Part shown: piece by piece, positions 883 through 31,676 of the stretch
Numbering within the stretch: the first letter of the stretch is position 1
How the letters are laid out: each line of letters opens with the position of its first letter
DNA from: an uncultured Alphaproteobacteria bacterium
GTDB lineage: Bacteria > Pseudomonadota > Alphaproteobacteria > UBA11222
Direction of reading: 5' to 3'
Length of the DNA: 38,693 nucleotides
Assembly: GCA_937888955.1 (NCBI GenBank)
Contig: CALAQW010000142.1
Coordinates: 1-38,693, forward strand
Program-made: the position numbers and the translations under genes
Notes under the pieces: model-generated
What the model saw: the letters and a program-made list of their open reading frames with translations, nothing else
Told to the model about the DNA's origin: nothing
Database searches by the model: none

Positions 883-1665
883 TTATCCTGTGCCGAAGCT
901 CTGTACCAGGCTGCTTGCAATCAGGCTCCAGCCATCCACCAATACGAAAAATATCAGTTTGAAGGGCAGCGAAATCATGATCGGTGGCAGCATCATCATG
1001 CCCATCGACATCAGAACCGATGCGACGACCATATCGATGACGACGAAGGGAATAAAAATCAGAAAGCCGATTTCAAATGCCCGTTTGAGCTCTGAAACCA
1101 TGAATGCAGGAATAAGCGCGTGCAATGGCGTGTCCGCTGCGGTTTGCGGCGTATCGGATTTGGACAGGTCGATGAACAGGCGCAGATCCTGTTCGCGGAC
1201 TTGCGACAGCATGAATTGCCGAACCGGCGCGACGGTGCGGTCGAACGCTTCTGTTTCGTCGATGCGATCTTCCATCAGGGGCTTTATGCCTTGCTCATAT
1301 GCCTGATTGAAGGTCGGCGCCATGACGAAGGCAGTCAAAAACAGGGCCAGTGAAATAATCACCGTATTGGGGGGCGAGGTTTGTGTGCCGAGCGCGCTGC
1401 GCAAAAGCGACAAGACCACGACAATGCGTGTAAAAGATGTCACCGTTACGAGAATGCCGGGCGCGATGCTGAGAACGGTGATAAAGGCGATCAGCTGTAT
1501 CAAACGCCCCGTCAGCGAATTCGTACCGCCGAGCAGTTCACTATCGGCGTCATCACCCAGATCGATGGTAATGTTCTGCGCAAATGCTTGCCCATCCGGC
1601 AAAAACAGAATTATGGCCAGAACCACAAGAGCGGGAATAAAAAGGCGGAATTTACGTCTGGTCAT
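883..1665 (-). CDS. fliP: Flagellar export gate protein FliP
   Basis: FliP is the core subunit of the FliPQR export gate in the inner membrane, through which rod, hook and filament subunits pass. The 260-residue product has a signal-like N-terminus (about 1-29, ending GQAFAQ). FliP hallmarks follow: SFTRIVVVLSLLRSALGTQ near 77-95, PPNTVIISLALFLT, and the membrane hairpin GFLIFIPFVVIDMVVASVL with MGMMMLPP. Length is typical. The start overlaps the end of fliO by 14 bases, so the two are translationally coupled. FliQ, FliR and FlhB, the other export membrane proteins, are encoded in the divergent operon. Confidence 0.97.
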   Translation of the reverse strand: MTRRKFRLFIPALVVLAIILFLPDGQAFAQNITIDLGDDADSELLGGTNSLTGRLIQLIAFITVLSIAPGILVTVTSFTRIVVVLSLLRSALGTQTSPPNTVIISLALFLTAFVMAPTFNQAYEQGIKPLMEDRIDETEAFDRTVAPVRQFMLSQVREQDLRLFIDLSKSDTPQTAADTPLHALIPAFMVSELKRAFEIGFLIFIPFVVIDMVVASVLMSMGMMMLPPIMISLPFKLIFFVLVDGWSLIASSLVQSFGTG

Positions 1666-1981
1666 CGGTACTCAGTCTGTGAGATGGCGTGGCGTTCCCG
1701 TCTTCGGGTGCCGTGTCGCCTGAAATATTGCATTCGATCACAAGATCATTGTCGCCACCGATCATCAGCAAATGCTGCCGGTCGTCGCGCCCGATAAGGA
1801 TGAGCTTCCTTTTGGCATCGATCGGGCGAACCTCCAGTAATACCAGGCGATTATCCGTATTACCCCGTTTTGCGGCGCGCGGTGTCAGTCCGGCGCGTTT
1901 GCCAAGCCAGGCGCAGAAACCGATAAGCCCCAGCACAAAGACAAGCGCGAGCAGGAAGCGTACATAATCAAAACTTTCCAT
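1652..1981 (-). CDS. fliO: Flagellar protein FliO
   Basis: FliO is a small membrane protein that assists assembly and stability of the FliP complex. The 109-residue product has one N-terminal membrane segment (about 8-26, VRFLLALVFVLGLIGFCAWL). A basic cytoplasmic stretch follows, then the FliO-type core NRLVLLEVRPIDAKRKLILI...HLLMIGG. The tail is acidic and disordered-looking. FliO is poorly conserved, but the topology, the RLxLLEVRPIDxKRKLxLI pattern and the overlap with fliP make the call secure. It is transcribed away from flgB, and the CtrA-type boxes lie upstream of its start. Confidence 0.92.
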   Translation of the reverse strand: MESFDYVRFLLALVFVLGLIGFCAWLGKRAGLTPRAAKRGNTDNRLVLLEVRPIDAKRKLILIGRDDRQHLLMIGGDNDLVIECNISGDTAPEDGNATPSHRLSTDDQT

Positions 1982-2066
1982 CAGAACCTTCGGGCCAATT
2001 TGTTGTGCGGATGCAGCAAGACGGTCTTCCGGGCACGGTGATAACGCTAATTTGCCGTCAATATGC

Positions 2067-2081
2067 TTAACGGGGGGTTAA
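2067..2081. promoter_or_regulatory. CtrA-type box 1 (TTAA-N7-TTAA)
   Basis: TTAACGGGGGGTTAA matches the CtrA recognition pattern TTAA-N7-TTAA exactly. It sits 86 bp upstream of fliO and about 110 bp upstream of flgB, in the shared divergent promoter region. It is also an inverted repeat (CTTAAC/GTTAAG). CtrA controlling flagellar genes through such sites is established in Caulobacter; use here is inferred. Confidence 0.6.
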
Positions 2082-2106
2082 GGCAGGCTTGCTATGCGGA
2101 ACGCGT

Positions 2107-2121
2107 TTAAGAGTTTGTTAA
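2107..2121. promoter_or_regulatory. CtrA-type box 2 (TTAA-N7-TTAA)
   Basis: TTAAGAGTTTGTTAA, followed by AC, is a second exact TTAA-N7-TTAA, 40 bp from box 1 and 71 bp upstream of flgB. The 40-bp separation is close to a whole number of helical turns. Two exact matches in one short intergenic region argue against chance. Confidence 0.62.
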
Positions 2122-2192
2122 ACCCGATGGGGCACAATCAACGCAATGGACCGAAGCAGGTTGCAATCGATCGGTGAGTTGATCCAAAGGCG

Positions 2193-2603
2193 ATGAGCGC
2201 AAACGCATTTCCCATATTTTCCGCTATTCGGACAAAGCTTGCATGGCTGTCGGCCCGCCAGAAAGTGGTATCCGAGAATATTGCAAACGCCAATACGCCT
2301 GGTTTCCGCGCGCGTGAACTGAAGCCGGTCGATTTTCGCAAGATGCTGGAAAATCAAGGGCAAATGGTGGGATTGCGGGTCACCAATGCCCGGCATATGA
2401 GCGGCCAGGGCGGTGCATCGCGTTTGTTTGATTTCAAGACAAGGGAAGCACCGATCGTCGAGATGGACGGATCGGGAAATTCGGTATCGATTGCCGAAGA
2501 GACAATGAAGCTCGGCCGCACTCAGGTCGAATATGAAATGACGACGAATATCTACCGCAAGCAAACAGGCCTGCTTCGTATCGCATTGGGCCGGCGTCAG
2601 TAG
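2193..2603 (+). CDS. flgB: Flagellar proximal rod protein FlgB
   Basis: FlgB is a proximal rod component of the basal body, exported to the periplasm through the flagellar type III apparatus. The 136 residues include the rod/hook N-terminal motif SENIANANTPGFRAREL (about 27-43). The C-terminal helix (MTTNIYRKQTGLLRIALGRR) pairs with the N-terminal helix in the D0 domain. Length is normal for FlgB. It opens the plus-strand operon flgB-flgC-fliE-fliQ-fliR-flhB, with 23 bases to flgC. The upstream region carries two CtrA-type boxes; the ribosome site is weak (AAAGG). Confidence 0.96.
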   Translation: MSANAFPIFSAIRTKLAWLSARQKVVSENIANANTPGFRARELKPVDFRKMLENQGQMVGLRVTNARHMSGQGGASRLFDFKTREAPIVEMDGSGNSVSIAEETMKLGRTQVEYEMTTNIYRKQTGLLRIALGRRQ

Positions 2604-2626: not shown

Positions 2627-3040
2627 ATGGATCTTAATCTCGCAATTCAGACGTCTGCATCAGGCATGCGCGCGCAGAGTACGCGCATGCGCGTGATTTC
2701 GGAAAATATCGCCAACTCGCAATCGCTGGCGAAGAATCCGGACGAAGATCCGTATCGGCGGCAGATGGTGACTTTTCGGAACGAGCTTGATCGGGTATCG
2801 GGCGCAAAACTTGTTAATGTCCGGAAGGTGGTCGAGGACAAAAGCGAATTCAAACAAAAATACGACCCGCTGCATCCGGCAGCCAACCCGCAGGGCTATG
2901 TGGATCTGCCAAATGTGAATGTCGTCCTTGAAACGATGGATATGCAGCAGGCGCAGCGCAGTTACGAGGCCAATATCGCGTCGCTGAAAGCGGCGCAGAA
3001 TATGCTGGTGAAGACAATCGATCTTCTGAATAACCGCTAG
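2627..3040 (+). CDS. flgC: Flagellar proximal rod protein FlgC
   Basis: FlgC is a proximal rod subunit. The 137-residue protein carries the N-terminal rod motif (MRVISENIANSQS, about 21-33). The C-terminal D0 helix MDMQQAQRSYEANIASLKAA is near-canonical for FlgC. The start is well fixed by a strong AGGAGGT ribosome site 8 bases upstream. It sits between flgB and fliE with short gaps, as in most proteobacteria. Confidence 0.97.
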   Translation: MDLNLAIQTSASGMRAQSTRMRVISENIANSQSLAKNPDEDPYRRQMVTFRNELDRVSGAKLVNVRKVVEDKSEFKQKYDPLHPAANPQGYVDLPNVNVVLETMDMQQAQRSYEANIASLKAAQNMLVKTIDLLNNR

Positions 3041-3062: not shown

Positions 3063-3392
3063 ATGAGCATTTTGGGAACCAATGCGGCGCAGGCGGCTTC
3101 TGCCTATGCGCAAACCGCAAGCCGGCCGCTGGAAGAGAATGGCGCAGGCGTCGCTGATGGCGCAGCACCCAAAGGCCCGACATTTACAGAGCTTGTGGAA
3201 GACAAGGTCGGCGCGGCGATCGGTGCGAACAGGAAAGCCGAATCGGTGTCATTGGATGCGATTAATGGCAAGGCGGATATGGTGGATCTTGTTACCGCTA
3301 TGAACAATGCGGAAATGACGTTGCAGACTGTCGTCGCGGTGCGCGACCGGGTGGTTCAGGCCTATCAAGATATTCTGAAAATGCCGATATGA
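3063..3392 (+). CDS. fliE: MS ring-rod junction protein FliE
   Basis: FliE joins the FliF MS ring to the rod and is needed for early export. The 109 residues have a low-complexity Ala-rich N-terminus, a middle TFTELVEDKVGAAI, and the conserved C-terminal region MVDLVTAMNNAEMTLQTVV with VQAYQDILKMPI. Length is typical. Gaps of 22 and 25 bases place it firmly in the flgBC-fliE-fliQ operon. No start problem is seen. Confidence 0.95.
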   Translation: MSILGTNAAQAASAYAQTASRPLEENGAGVADGAAPKGPTFTELVEDKVGAAIGANRKAESVSLDAINGKADMVDLVTAMNNAEMTLQTVVAVRDRVVQAYQDILKMPI

Positions 3393-3417: not shown

Positions 3418-3681
3418 ATGGGGCCGGCCGATGTCCTGGATGTGGGGCGTGACGCGATCTATGTCATGCTGCAGGTTTCCGCGCCTGTCATGCTGGTCGG
3501 GCTTGGTGTCGGGTTGATCATCGCGTTATTCCAGGCACTGACCCAGATTCAGGAAATGACCCTGACCTTCGTTCCAAAAATCATCGCTATTTTTGTGTCG
3601 CTACTGATCTTTCTGCCTTTCATGGGGCAGGTGCTTGACGGGCTTATGGGCCGGATTGCAGAGCGCATTATCGGCTTATAG
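3418..3681 (+). CDS. fliQ: Flagellar export gate protein FliQ
   Basis: FliQ is the small two-helix membrane subunit of the FliPQR export gate. The 87 residues form two hydrophobic hairpin segments (about 14-38 and 49-73) joined by the family motif QIQEMTLTFVPKI. Length is exactly that of the family. The ATG follows a GGGGGAG ribosome site. It lies between fliE and fliR; the 65-base gap to fliR is the longest in the operon up to fliR. Confidence 0.97.
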   Translation: MGPADVLDVGRDAIYVMLQVSAPVMLVGLGVGLIIALFQALTQIQEMTLTFVPKIIAIFVSLLIFLPFMGQVLDGLMGRIAERIIGL

Positions 3682-3746: not shown

Positions 3747-4511
3747 ATGCAGTTAGAACTGGTCCCAGCCCAAATCTTTGGCTTTTTTCTTGTTTTCAGC
3801 CGTGTCGGCAGCATGACCATACTCATGCCCGCTTTCGGTGAGGTATCTGTTCCCCCATGGGTTCGGCTTGGTATCGCATTTTCCCTGACGGCCGTTTTAT
3901 ATCCATTGGTAAAGGATCTTTTGCCGGTCATGCCGACGACACCTTTCGCCATTGTGGCGGTCGTTGGTGCGGAAGCATTGACGGGGCTGTTTATCGGCGG
4001 GATTGCGCGCTTGCTGCTGATGGCGCTGCATCTGGGGGGGCTTGTCATTGCATTTCAGACAGGACTTGGTTTTGCCCAGGGATTTGATCCCTCACAGCGT
4101 AGCCAGTCGGCGCTGGTCGGGACCTTCCTGACATTGGTCGGGGTCAACCTCATTCTGGCGGCAAATCTGCACCATCTGCTTGTCGGTGCAATGCATGACA
4201 GTTATCAGCTGTTCCACCCGGGCAGTCTGCCCGCGCCGGCAAGTTTTGCGGAACTCGCCACACAGACAGTCGGGCAGGCTTTTGCAATGGGGATCCAGCT
4301 TGCGGCGCCTTTCATTGTTTTCGGGATTATCTTTAATACGGGCATTGGGTTGCTCGCGCGTTTGATGCCGCAGGTGCAGATATTTTTTATCGCCGTGCCG
4401 GGCCAAATTCTGCTTGGTTTCATGATCATGGGGATGATCTTTTCCAGCATGATGCTTTGGTATCTCGATTATTTCGAGGCCGGTGTCACAAATCTTCTGA
4501 TTGCGCGATAA
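3747..4511 (+). CDS. fliR: Flagellar export gate protein FliR
   Basis: FliR is the third FliPQR gate subunit, a polytopic inner-membrane protein. The 254 residues show about six hydrophobic segments. FliR-typical features include the N-terminal FFLVFSRVGSMTILMPAFGE, the GxQTGLGFAQGFDP loop and the C-terminal LLARLMPQVQIFFIAVPGQI. The stop is 10 bases before the flhB ATG, so the pair is likely co-translated. Codon use and length are unremarkable. Confidence 0.96.
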   Translation: MQLELVPAQIFGFFLVFSRVGSMTILMPAFGEVSVPPWVRLGIAFSLTAVLYPLVKDLLPVMPTTPFAIVAVVGAEALTGLFIGGIARLLLMALHLGGLVIAFQTGLGFAQGFDPSQRSQSALVGTFLTLVGVNLILAANLHHLLVGAMHDSYQLFHPGSLPAPASFAELATQTVGQAFAMGIQLAAPFIVFGIIFNTGIGLLARLMPQVQIFFIAVPGQILLGFMIMGMIFSSMMLWYLDYFEAGVTNLLIAR

Positions 4512-4521
4512 GGGCGGCGGC

Positions 4522-5580
4522 ATGTCAGAAGAAGATAAATCACAAAAAACAGAAGAGCCGACGCAGAAAAAGCTCGAAGACGCTCAGAAAAAAGGCGATG
4601 TCGCACGCAGTCAGGAAATCCGCCATCTCGCCATGCTGGCGGGCGGCGGGCTCGCCATTGCGATATTTGCCGGTCAGATTGGTGTGCAGGTGAGTAATAA
4701 CCTGTCCGTTTATCTGGCCAATGCCGGGCAGATACCGGCAGATGCGCCAAATCTTGCGCGCGTCGGGCGCGATGTTGTGACGGGGCTTCTGTCATGGCTT
4801 GGATTGCCGCTATTGCTGCTTGTCGTTGCAGCACTTGCAGGAAGCATTCTGCAGGCAAAGCCTGTACTCACAACCGAGAAGATAAAACCGAAATTCAGCA
4901 AGATTTCGCTTACGAAAGGTTTTGGCAGACTGTTTTCCAGCCAGTCGGTGATGGAGTTTACCAAAGGTCTGCTCAAGCTCGCGATTGTCGCAACGGTTGT
5001 CATCCTCGTCGTATGGCCCGATCGGGATCGGCTCGATACGCTTATGACTTATGCGCCTGCCGATATGTTGGACTATGTGAAAGTCGCAGCACTCAAGATG
5101 TTTGGTGGTGCAATTGCGATCATGGGATTGATCGCTGCTGCCGACTTTCTTTATCAGCGGTCGGAGTTTCTGAAAAAGCAGCGGATGAGCCGGCAGGAAA
5201 TCAAGGATGAACACAAGCAGACGGATGGCGATCCGCAAGTAAAGGCGCGTATTCAACGCATCAGAATGGAGCGCGCGCGCGGACGAATGATGGCCGCAGT
5301 TCCTGAGGCAACGCTCGTGATCGCCAACCCGACGCATTTCGCGGTCGCGCTGAAATATGAGCATCAGGAAATGAATGCGCCAGTCTGTGTGGCGAAGGGC
5401 GTTGACGAGGTGGCGTTGCGGATCCGCTCCGTTGCCGAAGAAAATGGCGTGCCGGTTGTCGAAAATCCGCCACTTGCTCGGGCCCTGCATGCCTCGGTCG
5501 AGCTGGAGCAGGAAATTACGCCAGAACATTATCAGGCAGTGGCCGAGGTAATTGGCTATGTGATGGGCTTGCGAAAGTAG
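4522..5580 (+). CDS. flhB: Flagellar export switch protein FlhB
   Basis: FlhB sets export substrate specificity, switching from rod/hook to filament proteins after self-cleavage. I chose the ATG at 4522 (MSEEDKSQKTEEPTQKK) because it follows GGGCGGCGG and gives the standard FlhB N-terminus; the track's TTG at 4501 lies inside fliR. The 352-residue protein has four membrane segments (about 30-220), the basic linker and the autocleavage motif NPTH at residues 269-272. The C-terminal FlhBc domain is complete (VCVAKGVDEVALRIR, VVENPPLARAL). It is followed 80 bases later by cckA on the same strand. Confidence 0.97.
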   Translation: MSEEDKSQKTEEPTQKKLEDAQKKGDVARSQEIRHLAMLAGGGLAIAIFAGQIGVQVSNNLSVYLANAGQIPADAPNLARVGRDVVTGLLSWLGLPLLLLVVAALAGSILQAKPVLTTEKIKPKFSKISLTKGFGRLFSSQSVMEFTKGLLKLAIVATVVILVVWPDRDRLDTLMTYAPADMLDYVKVAALKMFGGAIAIMGLIAAADFLYQRSEFLKKQRMSRQEIKDEHKQTDGDPQVKARIQRIRMERARGRMMAAVPEATLVIANPTHFAVALKYEHQEMNAPVCVAKGVDEVALRIRSVAEENGVPVVENPPLARALHASVELEQEITPEHYQAVAEVIGYVMGLRK

Positions 5581-5660: not shown

Positions 5661-8039
5661 ATGGGGCTGTTATCCGATCAGAAAGGTGTGGCGGGACTGC
5701 GCGGATTGCTGAAAGGGGGGGCAGGACGCATCCTTGGCAAGGACACCGCTCGCCGCGAACATTTCAGGCTTGCAGGATTTGATTACGGCGTACTTGCGGA
5801 GCTTGTCGATAACAGTCAGGACGCGATATTGATCACCGGTGAAGCAGGCGAAGTCTGCTATGCCAATGTGGGCTATTATCAGCAGTTTGATATTGATCAG
5901 TCGGTTGTTCCGCCCCCTGCCTTGTCTACCATATTGGGGCGGCAGGATAATTGTAGCGACCGGCTTTTCCGTTTGCAGAAGGCGATTGCCGCGCGGCAGC
6001 CGGCAAAAGAGGTGATGTCGTTTGTTCAGGCGGACAAACTTCACCGTGTGGCAGTGAGTGTCGCGCCTGTTTCATCAGCAAGTCCACTATGCGTCTGGCG
6101 TATCCAGCGCTATTACAGAACTGAAAATTCAGCGTCGCCCGAACTACAAAAATTCAAGCAGATACTGGAGGTTATCGACACCGCGCCATTGGGTATCGGT
6201 ATTGTCAGTGAAACCGGTGTCGTTGAATTTGCCAATGCGATATTTGCTGATTGGGTTGGTTTGTCGCCCGAGGAAATCCTGTCAGGGAAAGTAACGAGTA
6301 CGGATATATTCGAGGACAGCTCGGCTTTCTGGTCATCGAGTGAGGAGGAGCGGGACCTCACCTATACCGGTATTGAACGCACGATTATCGTCTCCGTAAA
6401 CGGTGAGCGAATTCCGATTTCAGCCCTGTACCGGATACGTGAAGATACCGATCGGGGAATCCGGACATTGCAGCTTGTCATGCGTGATCTTCGGGTGCAG
6501 CTATCGGCGGATTTGACGCAATTACGCGAGGTGGAGGCACGTTTCCTTCGTCTGTTCGATATTGCGCCGGTTGGCATCGTTATTGTGGATCAGCATGGCA
6601 GTGTCGTCGAATCGAACTCGGCCTTTTTCAAGAATTTCGGCATGTTGTTCAGCAGTGGTGACGATTTCCTGTCTATTGTTGATGAAACCTATGTCGCTGA
6701 AGTGCGTCAGCGGATTGCCGATGCGGCAAGGCAGCAATTGACCGGGCAGCATGTCGATATCGAATTGCACAATCGTGGCGAGGCACGTTCCGCACAGCTT
6801 TATATTTCGCCGTTGCGGGAATCAGGTGATGCATCTGTCGTTTTGTACTTGATCGATACGACGGAACAACGGAATTTGGAGCTGCAATTCTCCCAGTCGC
6901 AGAAGATGCAGGCGGTCGGACAACTGGCCGGCGGCATCGCGCATGATTTCAATAATCTGCTGACTGCAATTATCGGATATAGTGACCTGCTTCTCAGTCG
7001 CCACGATGCTGGCGACCCGTCATTCAGCGATATTCACCAGATCAAGCAAAACGCCAACCGCGCAGCCAACCTTGTGCGGCAACTCCTCGCCTTCTCGCGG
7101 CAGCAAACGCTGCAGCCGGCGGTAATTTCAATCACTGACATGCTGGCGGAACTGCACAATCTGTTACGACGGCTGCTTGGCCAGCACATTGAATTGACAA
7201 TGACGCACGGGCGCAATCTGGGGCAGGTCAAGGCGGATCAGGGGCAGCTTGAGAATGTCATCATCAATCTGGCTGTCAATGCACGCGATGCGCTGGCCGG
7301 CAATAAGGGGCGGTTATCAATCCGTACGGCGAACATTTCCGCAGAGCAGGCGCAATCGCTGGATCATAGCTGGATGCCGTCTGGGGATTGCGTGATGATT
7401 GAGGTTGCCGATGACGGACCCGGTATCCCGAAAGCGGTAATCGGCAAGATATTCGAACCGTTTTTTACGACAAAGGAAGTTGGAAAAGGCACGGGACTGG
7501 GACTGTCGACCGCCTACGGTATTATCAAGCAGCAAGGCGGCAATATTCATGTGCAAAGCGAGGTTGGCGAGGGTGCGACATTCCGTATTTATCTTCCTGT
7601 CTATGCGGAAGAGGAAGTGCAGACCGAAAACGGCGATGCGCAGCTGGAAGCCAGTGCCGATCTGACGGGAAATGGGGTCATTCTGCTGGTCGAGGATGAA
7701 GATCCGGTTCGTGCATTCGCATCCCGCGCGCTGTCTGGCAAGGGATATACCGTGCTGGAGGCCGACGGGCCGGATCAGGCGCTTGAAATAGTCGAAACGC
7801 GTGCGGACGAAATTGATCTGGTGATTTCAGATGTTGTTATGCCCGGTATGGACGGGGCACGGCTGATGAAAATCATTCAGCAAAAAAGTCCGGGCATTCG
7901 CGCTATATTTATCTCCGGCTACGCGGAAAATGCATTCCGCGACAGTGACGAACTAGTCGAGGATTATTTGTTCCTGCCCAAGCCGTTTACACTGAAACAG
8001 CTTGCGGCGCGGGTAAAGGAAGCCTTTGCCGACCGTTAG
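5661..8039 (+). CDS. cckA: Hybrid sensor histidine kinase CckA
   Basis: CckA feeds phosphate to ChpT and on to CtrA and CpdR, controlling cell cycle and motility in alphaproteobacteria. The 792 residues show PAS-like regions at roughly 45-150, 165-285 and 295-405. A HisKA domain follows with phospho-acceptor H428 in GGIAHDFNN, then an ATPase domain (NLAVNARDA, ADDGPGIP, GTGLGLSTAYG) and a C-terminal receiver with D724 in VISDVVMPGMDG. The tail ISGYAENAFR is CckA-like, and cckA after flhB is a recurrent alphaproteobacterial arrangement. Caulobacter CckA has two N-terminal membrane helices; here I see no hydrophobic stretch long enough to span the membrane. No ChpT, CtrA or CpdR gene is in the window. 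Confidence 0.9.
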   Translation: MGLLSDQKGVAGLRGLLKGGAGRILGKDTARREHFRLAGFDYGVLAELVDNSQDAILITGEAGEVCYANVGYYQQFDIDQSVVPPPALSTILGRQDNCSDRLFRLQKAIAARQPAKEVMSFVQADKLHRVAVSVAPVSSASPLCVWRIQRYYRTENSASPELQKFKQILEVIDTAPLGIGIVSETGVVEFANAIFADWVGLSPEEILSGKVTSTDIFEDSSAFWSSSEEERDLTYTGIERTIIVSVNGERIPISALYRIREDTDRGIRTLQLVMRDLRVQLSADLTQLREVEARFLRLFDIAPVGIVIVDQHGSVVESNSAFFKNFGMLFSSGDDFLSIVDETYVAEVRQRIADAARQQLTGQHVDIELHNRGEARSAQLYISPLRESGDASVVLYLIDTTEQRNLELQFSQSQKMQAVGQLAGGIAHDFNNLLTAIIGYSDLLLSRHDAGDPSFSDIHQIKQNANRAANLVRQLLAFSRQQTLQPAVISITDMLAELHNLLRRLLGQHIELTMTHGRNLGQVKADQGQLENVIINLAVNARDALAGNKGRLSIRTANISAEQAQSLDHSWMPSGDCVMIEVADDGPGIPKAVIGKIFEPFFTTKEVGKGTGLGLSTAYGIIKQQGGNIHVQSEVGEGATFRIYLPVYAEEEVQTENGDAQLEASADLTGNGVILLVEDEDPVRAFASRALSGKGYTVLEADGPDQALEIVETRADEIDLVISDVVMPGMDGARLMKIIQQKSPGIRAIFISGYAENAFRDSDELVEDYLFLPKPFTLKQLAARVKEAFADR

Positions 8040-31472: not shown

Positions 31473-31676
31473 TTGCCTTCGTCATTCCGATCCAACTGGT
31501 TGTTCCAAGCACAAATGCACCAGTGGGCGAACGCTCGCTGACTGGTGGAAATTCCGGTTGCGCCGGAACTTTGTGATCATCGACTTATTAGATGTGGATC
31601 GGTGCGGAAGCTATGCAACCATCATGGACAAGTCAACCGTAAACATCGCGGATTGTTTTGAGGTTTGGGCTGTCCA

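Follow-up and report, generated by a model that had tools for sequence, protein, structure and literature searches.

Paired CtrA-type boxes between divergent fliO-fliP and flgB operons point to an old and widespread alphaproteobacterial switch

Results

The 211-bp gap between the divergent fliO and flgB genes of an uncultured alphaproteobacterium is predicted from its sequence to hold two separate back-to-back sigma-70 promoters, each activated by CtrA through a box of its own, a reading to which we assign a probability of about 0.88. A pattern search of the whole stretch of DNA analysed (38.7 kb, hereafter the window) returned exactly two exact TTAA-N7-TTAA matches, both inside this gap and with starts 40 bp apart. 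An earlier note on this DNA had described two exact CtrA-type boxes at that distance between divergent operons, and a flgB run ending in cckA. Both descriptions hold: the boxes lie at 2067-2081 and 2107-2121, and the gene that follows flhB on the same strand has CckA as its best NCBIfam match. The features of the locus are:

883..1665, minus strand, fliP (NCBIfam TIGR01103, 306 bits, above cut-off)
1652..1981, minus strand, fliO, ATG at 1981, preceding fliP (NCBIfam FliO_TIGR, 42.9 bits, under the cut-off of 55.25)
2049..2054, minus strand, CAAATT, predicted to be the -10 hexamer for fliO-fliP, 12 nt past box 1
2067-2081, minus strand, CtrA-type box 1, TTAACGGGGGGTTAA, reading TTAACCCCCCGTTAA toward fliO; exact match to a motif that is itself symmetric
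2107-2121, plus strand, CtrA-type box 2, TTAAGAGTTTGTTAA toward flgB; exact match
2133..2138, plus strand, CACAAT, predicted to be the -10 hexamer for the flgB operon, 11 nt past box 2
2193..2603, plus strand, flgB, ATG at 2193, first gene of the rightward run (NCBIfam TIGR01396, above cut-off)
2627..3040, plus strand, flgC (open reading frame named from its position and an earlier annotation)
3063..3392, plus strand, fliE (open reading frame named from its position)
3418..3681, plus strand, fliQ (NCBIfam TIGR01402, above cut-off)
3747..4511, plus strand, fliR (open reading frame named from its position)
4522..5580, plus strand, flhB, with an ATG start (mechanical open reading frame from 4501; NCBIfam TIGR00328, 373 bits, above cut-off)
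5661..8039, plus strand, cckA, last gene of the run (698.6 bits, below the lineage-specific cut-off)

Rightward, the genes follow in the order flgB-flgC-fliE-fliQ-fliR-flhB-cckA. At this locus fliO, fliP, flgB, fliQ, flhB and cckA were tested by profile, and a profile scan of the cckA product identified PAS, HisKA, HATPase and receiver domains. Elsewhere in the window, a match to the Rfam ffh sRNA family was recorded at 31510-31562 on the minus strand (47.5 bits).

TTAA is short, and two matches were reached in 2 of 100 window shuffles (chance expectation 0.21 boxes per window), which leaves some ground for regarding the boxes as chance matches in AT-rich intergenic DNA. Conservation leaves this reading next to no probability, however. 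The pair recurs at 40-42 bp in the orthologous fliO-flgB gap of all six genomes of the family (which are not statistically independent of one another), even though no more than 48-56% of FlgB residues are shared with the second genus. Eleven of the twelve family boxes are exact: box 1 is conserved in 6/6 genomes, while box 2 is exact in five and carries one mismatch in the sixth. The conservation in relatives by which the earlier note proposed to judge the boxes also extends across the class. We compared 24 other alphaproteobacterial families, one genome each and all with flgB. In 20 of them a box that departs from the motif at one position or none lies no more than 300 bp from flgB, whereas 300 first-order Markov shuffles gave an expectation of 2.65 and never more than 7; an exact box near flgB is present in six, against 0.19 expected. 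In many of these 24 genomes fliO or fliP lies divergently upstream of flgB, and ctrA was found in most. Several class members having both ctrA and flgB (e.g. G045 and G052) showed no box close to flgB.

Alignment of the family gaps revealed a -10-like hexamer on the outer side of each box. Toward fliO, CACATT or CAAATT stands at offset 11-12 past box 1 in 6/6 genomes, and GCATA flanking this box is conserved as well; toward flgB, the hexamers CACAAT, GACTAT, GAAAAT and GAGAAT occur about 11 nt past box 2. In all six genomes the hexamers keep the two best-conserved bases of a -10 element, A at position 2 and T at position 6. The same spacing was then scored in five family genomes, over 87 oriented pairs of site and gene that excluded the fliO/flgB region. 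A hexamer with A2 and T6 was found at offset 11 in 20 of the 87 pairs, compared to 6.4 expected (Poisson about 1e-5 before correction for the 30 offsets scored, the orthologous sites among the pairs not being independent), and at no other offset in more than 11. Taking CACAAT at 2133-2138 as the -10 element places box 2 between about -38 and -24, in agreement with the functional -35 and -27/-28 positions of Rhodobacter (Cereibacter) sphaeroides flgB2p (PMC6180460). The hexamer spacing, together with this placement of box 2, makes it most likely that each box serves one outward promoter. The earlier note had suggested CtrA control in both directions, and the predicted geometry, with one promoter per box, agrees with it.

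We propose that phosphorylated CtrA would bind both boxes, each within a -35 region: box 2 in that of the flgB promoter and box 1 in that of the fliO promoter, whose -10 would be CAAATT (2054-2049, minus strand). It would then turn on fliO-fliP leftward and flgB-flgC-fliE-fliQ-fliR-flhB rightward; binding and activation at both boxes are what we infer from the arrangement. Two other modes of action deserve consideration. The boxes may form one control region, at which cooperative CtrA drives one main promoter, the other direction being weak or otherwise driven. The spacing of 40-42 bp that the family keeps, nearly four helical turns, would suit such cooperation, but outside the family the boxes stand at very different distances (54, 70, 82 and 119 bp), a -10-like hexamer faces outward from each box within the family, and mutagenesis of flgB2p-fliI2p in R. 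sphaeroides identified two independent sites (PMC6180460). We regard a single control region as unlikely. Still less likely is repression by CtrA in one or both directions: CtrA does repress some Caulobacter promoters, where a half-site overlaps the -10 element, but the full boxes found here are at the -35 region, from which CtrA activates (PMC6180460).

Control by CtrA through two separate promoters presupposes the regulator itself, and the genome encodes a CtrA ortholog that is 77% identical over its length to Caulobacter CtrA and reaches 427 bits with the NCBIfam CtrA model, against a cut-off of 350. In its DNA-binding domain 85 of 101 residues are identical to those of Caulobacter, with unbroken identity from about residue 157 to 201. 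The earlier note had suggested a search for ctrA, chpT and cpdR, and chpT and cpdR were found as well as ctrA. CckA, ChpT and CpdR were all assigned as best NCBIfam matches below lineage-specific cut-offs (those of the CckA model are set for particular lineages), and ChpT was also identified by PF10090. DivL contains PAS, HisKA and HATPase domains, with a tyrosine in place of the phospho-acceptor histidine (SYQLRTPL). Between flgE and fliF is a gene with PF06627/DUF1153, the family of the CtrA antagonist SciP, and a box stands about 157 bp before its ATG. Exact boxes at sciP were located at L012:1501-1515, L068:1813-1827 and L125, and also near sciP in G001 and G005.

The whole assembly (3,010,001 bases in 217 contigs, estimated contamination 5.73%) contains 12 exact boxes in eleven regions, two of them at fliO/flgB. 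Five of the eleven regions are flagellar or belong to the CtrA pathway, with boxes before fliO/flgB, divL, chpT, cpdR and sciP. Two further regions precede an rpoH-like sigma factor gene and a SAM-dependent methyltransferase gene, and the remaining boxes precede genes resembling trmFO, cysD, mrcA and a MASE1-PAS gene (names assigned by eye). The chance of the five-region concentration, about 1e-6, is a guide only, as it was computed for five of ten with a category picked post hoc and assumes that flagellar and CtrA-pathway genes make up an estimated 2% or so of the genome. Sites with N6 or N8 spacing, in ten regions of the same genome, served as controls. By eye these had no flagellar or CtrA-pathway neighbour, the adjacent genes looking metabolic (malate dehydrogenase, glmS, carA, bcp and others) or sensor-like, with the single exception of the N6 site of ctrA itself. 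The enrichment of boxes before motility genes, which the earlier note had put forward as a test, is seen at N7 spacing when motility and CtrA-pathway genes are taken together. Within the family, a box precedes divL in 6 genomes, cpdR in 5, chpT in 2 and sciP in 3.

Over the six family genomes, 107 sites with N7 spacing were counted, versus 77 with N6 and 57 with N8, an excess of about 1.6-fold (Poisson about 4e-6 relative to the mean of N6 and N8). Since this excess is modest, many of the exact boxes elsewhere may be due to chance and a lone exact box is weak evidence, conservation being the stronger argument. A reversed-pattern control, AATT-N7-AATT, was dropped as unfair, TTAA and AATT not being equally common.

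The N6 site before ctrA (TTAACAAAAGTTAA / TTAACTTTTGTTAA; region G000:C164:7419-7500, L013) is also present in G001. The ctrA upstream region has in addition an N7 box with one mismatch, and the promoter is crowded with TTAA. Autoregulation of ctrA is probable from this arrangement, and half-sites 6 bp apart do function in R. sphaeroides and at the P2 promoter of Caulobacter ctrA (PMC6180460).

The last gene of the rightward run bears on the wiring of the pathway, as CckA is the kinase with which the CtrA phosphorelay begins. Caulobacter keeps flgBC-fliE apart from fliQR-flhB, whereas here they form one run that ends in cckA. If the rightward flgB transcript runs on into cckA, the switch would reinforce its own kinase; such CtrA feedback via cckA is plausible in view of the linkage. 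The alternative, which concerns this feedback step only, is that cckA has a promoter of its own inside flhB or in the gap that follows, so that box 2 would act without feedback on the kinase. It is a serious competitor, with a chance somewhat below even. The 80 bp that separate the end of flhB at 5580 from the start of cckA at 5661 on the same strand offer room for such a promoter, and the length of this gap varies among relatives. However, no CtrA box with up to 2 mismatches was found in or before the flhB-cckA gap, and the gap showed no promoter-like and no terminator-like site, although a promoter of another type would escape the scan. Conserved flgB-cckA linkage also speaks against a separate promoter. 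In 23 (20 families) of the 30 genomes in which both genes were found, cckA follows flgB on its strand at a distance of 3.1-6.2 kb, and flhB is directly upstream of cckA in most linked genomes where the fetched flank reaches. In the other seven, mostly fragmented assemblies, flgB and cckA are on different contigs.

Discussion

As judged by sequence comparison, the paired CtrA promoter is real, conserved and of a known type, an old and widespread alphaproteobacterial switch. Its closest described counterpart is flgB2p-fliI2p of R. sphaeroides, where divergent CtrA promoters were demonstrated by 5' RACE, mutagenesis and ChIP (PMC6180460). As in our locus, these are divergent flagellar promoters, one of which starts with flgB; the CtrA sites are at the -35 regions and the -10 elements have a conserved A, at -11 (PMC6180460). 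The two loci differ in that the partner gene in R. sphaeroides is fliI instead of fliO, the half-sites are 6 bp apart instead of 7 bp, and the transcription starts are only 47 bp apart, unlike those predicted here (PMC6180460). Class II flagellar promoters of Caulobacter crescentus are similar in having TTAA-N7-TTAA near -35 and export apparatus genes as targets (PMC6180460). In Dinoroseobacter shibae, TTAA-N7-TTAAC sites were predicted before flgB, fliI, flgE, rpoH1, ctrA, cckA and divL, and self-regulation of the CtrA phosphorelay has already been proposed (PMC4046655). One predicted D. shibae site stands directly before cckA, whereas none does so here and the link would pass via the flagellar operon (PMC4046655). 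Co-localization of cckA with flagellar genes in Rhodospirillum rubrum was flagged in 2025 as needing further attention (PMC12363192).

What the analysis adds is the exact architecture of the promoter pair, the evidence that an uncultured family and the class at large conserve it, the boxes before divL, chpT, cpdR and sciP of the same genome, and the class-wide linkage of flgB and cckA. In Magnetospirillum, on the account of Greene et al. 2012 given in PMC12363192 and PMC8116508, CtrA controls motility, which was proposed to be its ancestral role. Our results add an uncultured alphaproteobacterial family to the evidence for motility as the old core of the CtrA regulon and provide a precise architecture that can be tested, namely a pair of boxes with an outward-facing -10 hexamer 11-12 nt from each. 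The wide occurrence of the flgB-cckA linkage makes a kinase gene embedded in an operon under its own control directly testable too. We suggest, tentatively and with rather more doubt than confidence, that in early Alphaproteobacteria cckA was the last gene of a CtrA-driven rod and export-gate operon, the flagellar switch amplifying its own kinase. This lineage would have kept that form, with boxes before the other pathway genes placing nearly the whole phosphorelay under CtrA.

Some boxes lie outside the flagellar and phosphorelay genes. The SAM-dependent methyltransferase gene has an exact box upstream in 4 family genomes (L006:1501-1515) and is a candidate for an unrecognised CtrA target. 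An exact box stands 29 bp before the rpoH-like sigma factor gene (L009:1501-1515), a parallel to the rpoH1 site reported in D. shibae (PMC4046655). In the second genus, exact boxes precede a FlaG-type-like gene, a TPR protein gene and lon (L077, L097, L087, L120; gene names by eye), each in two genomes.
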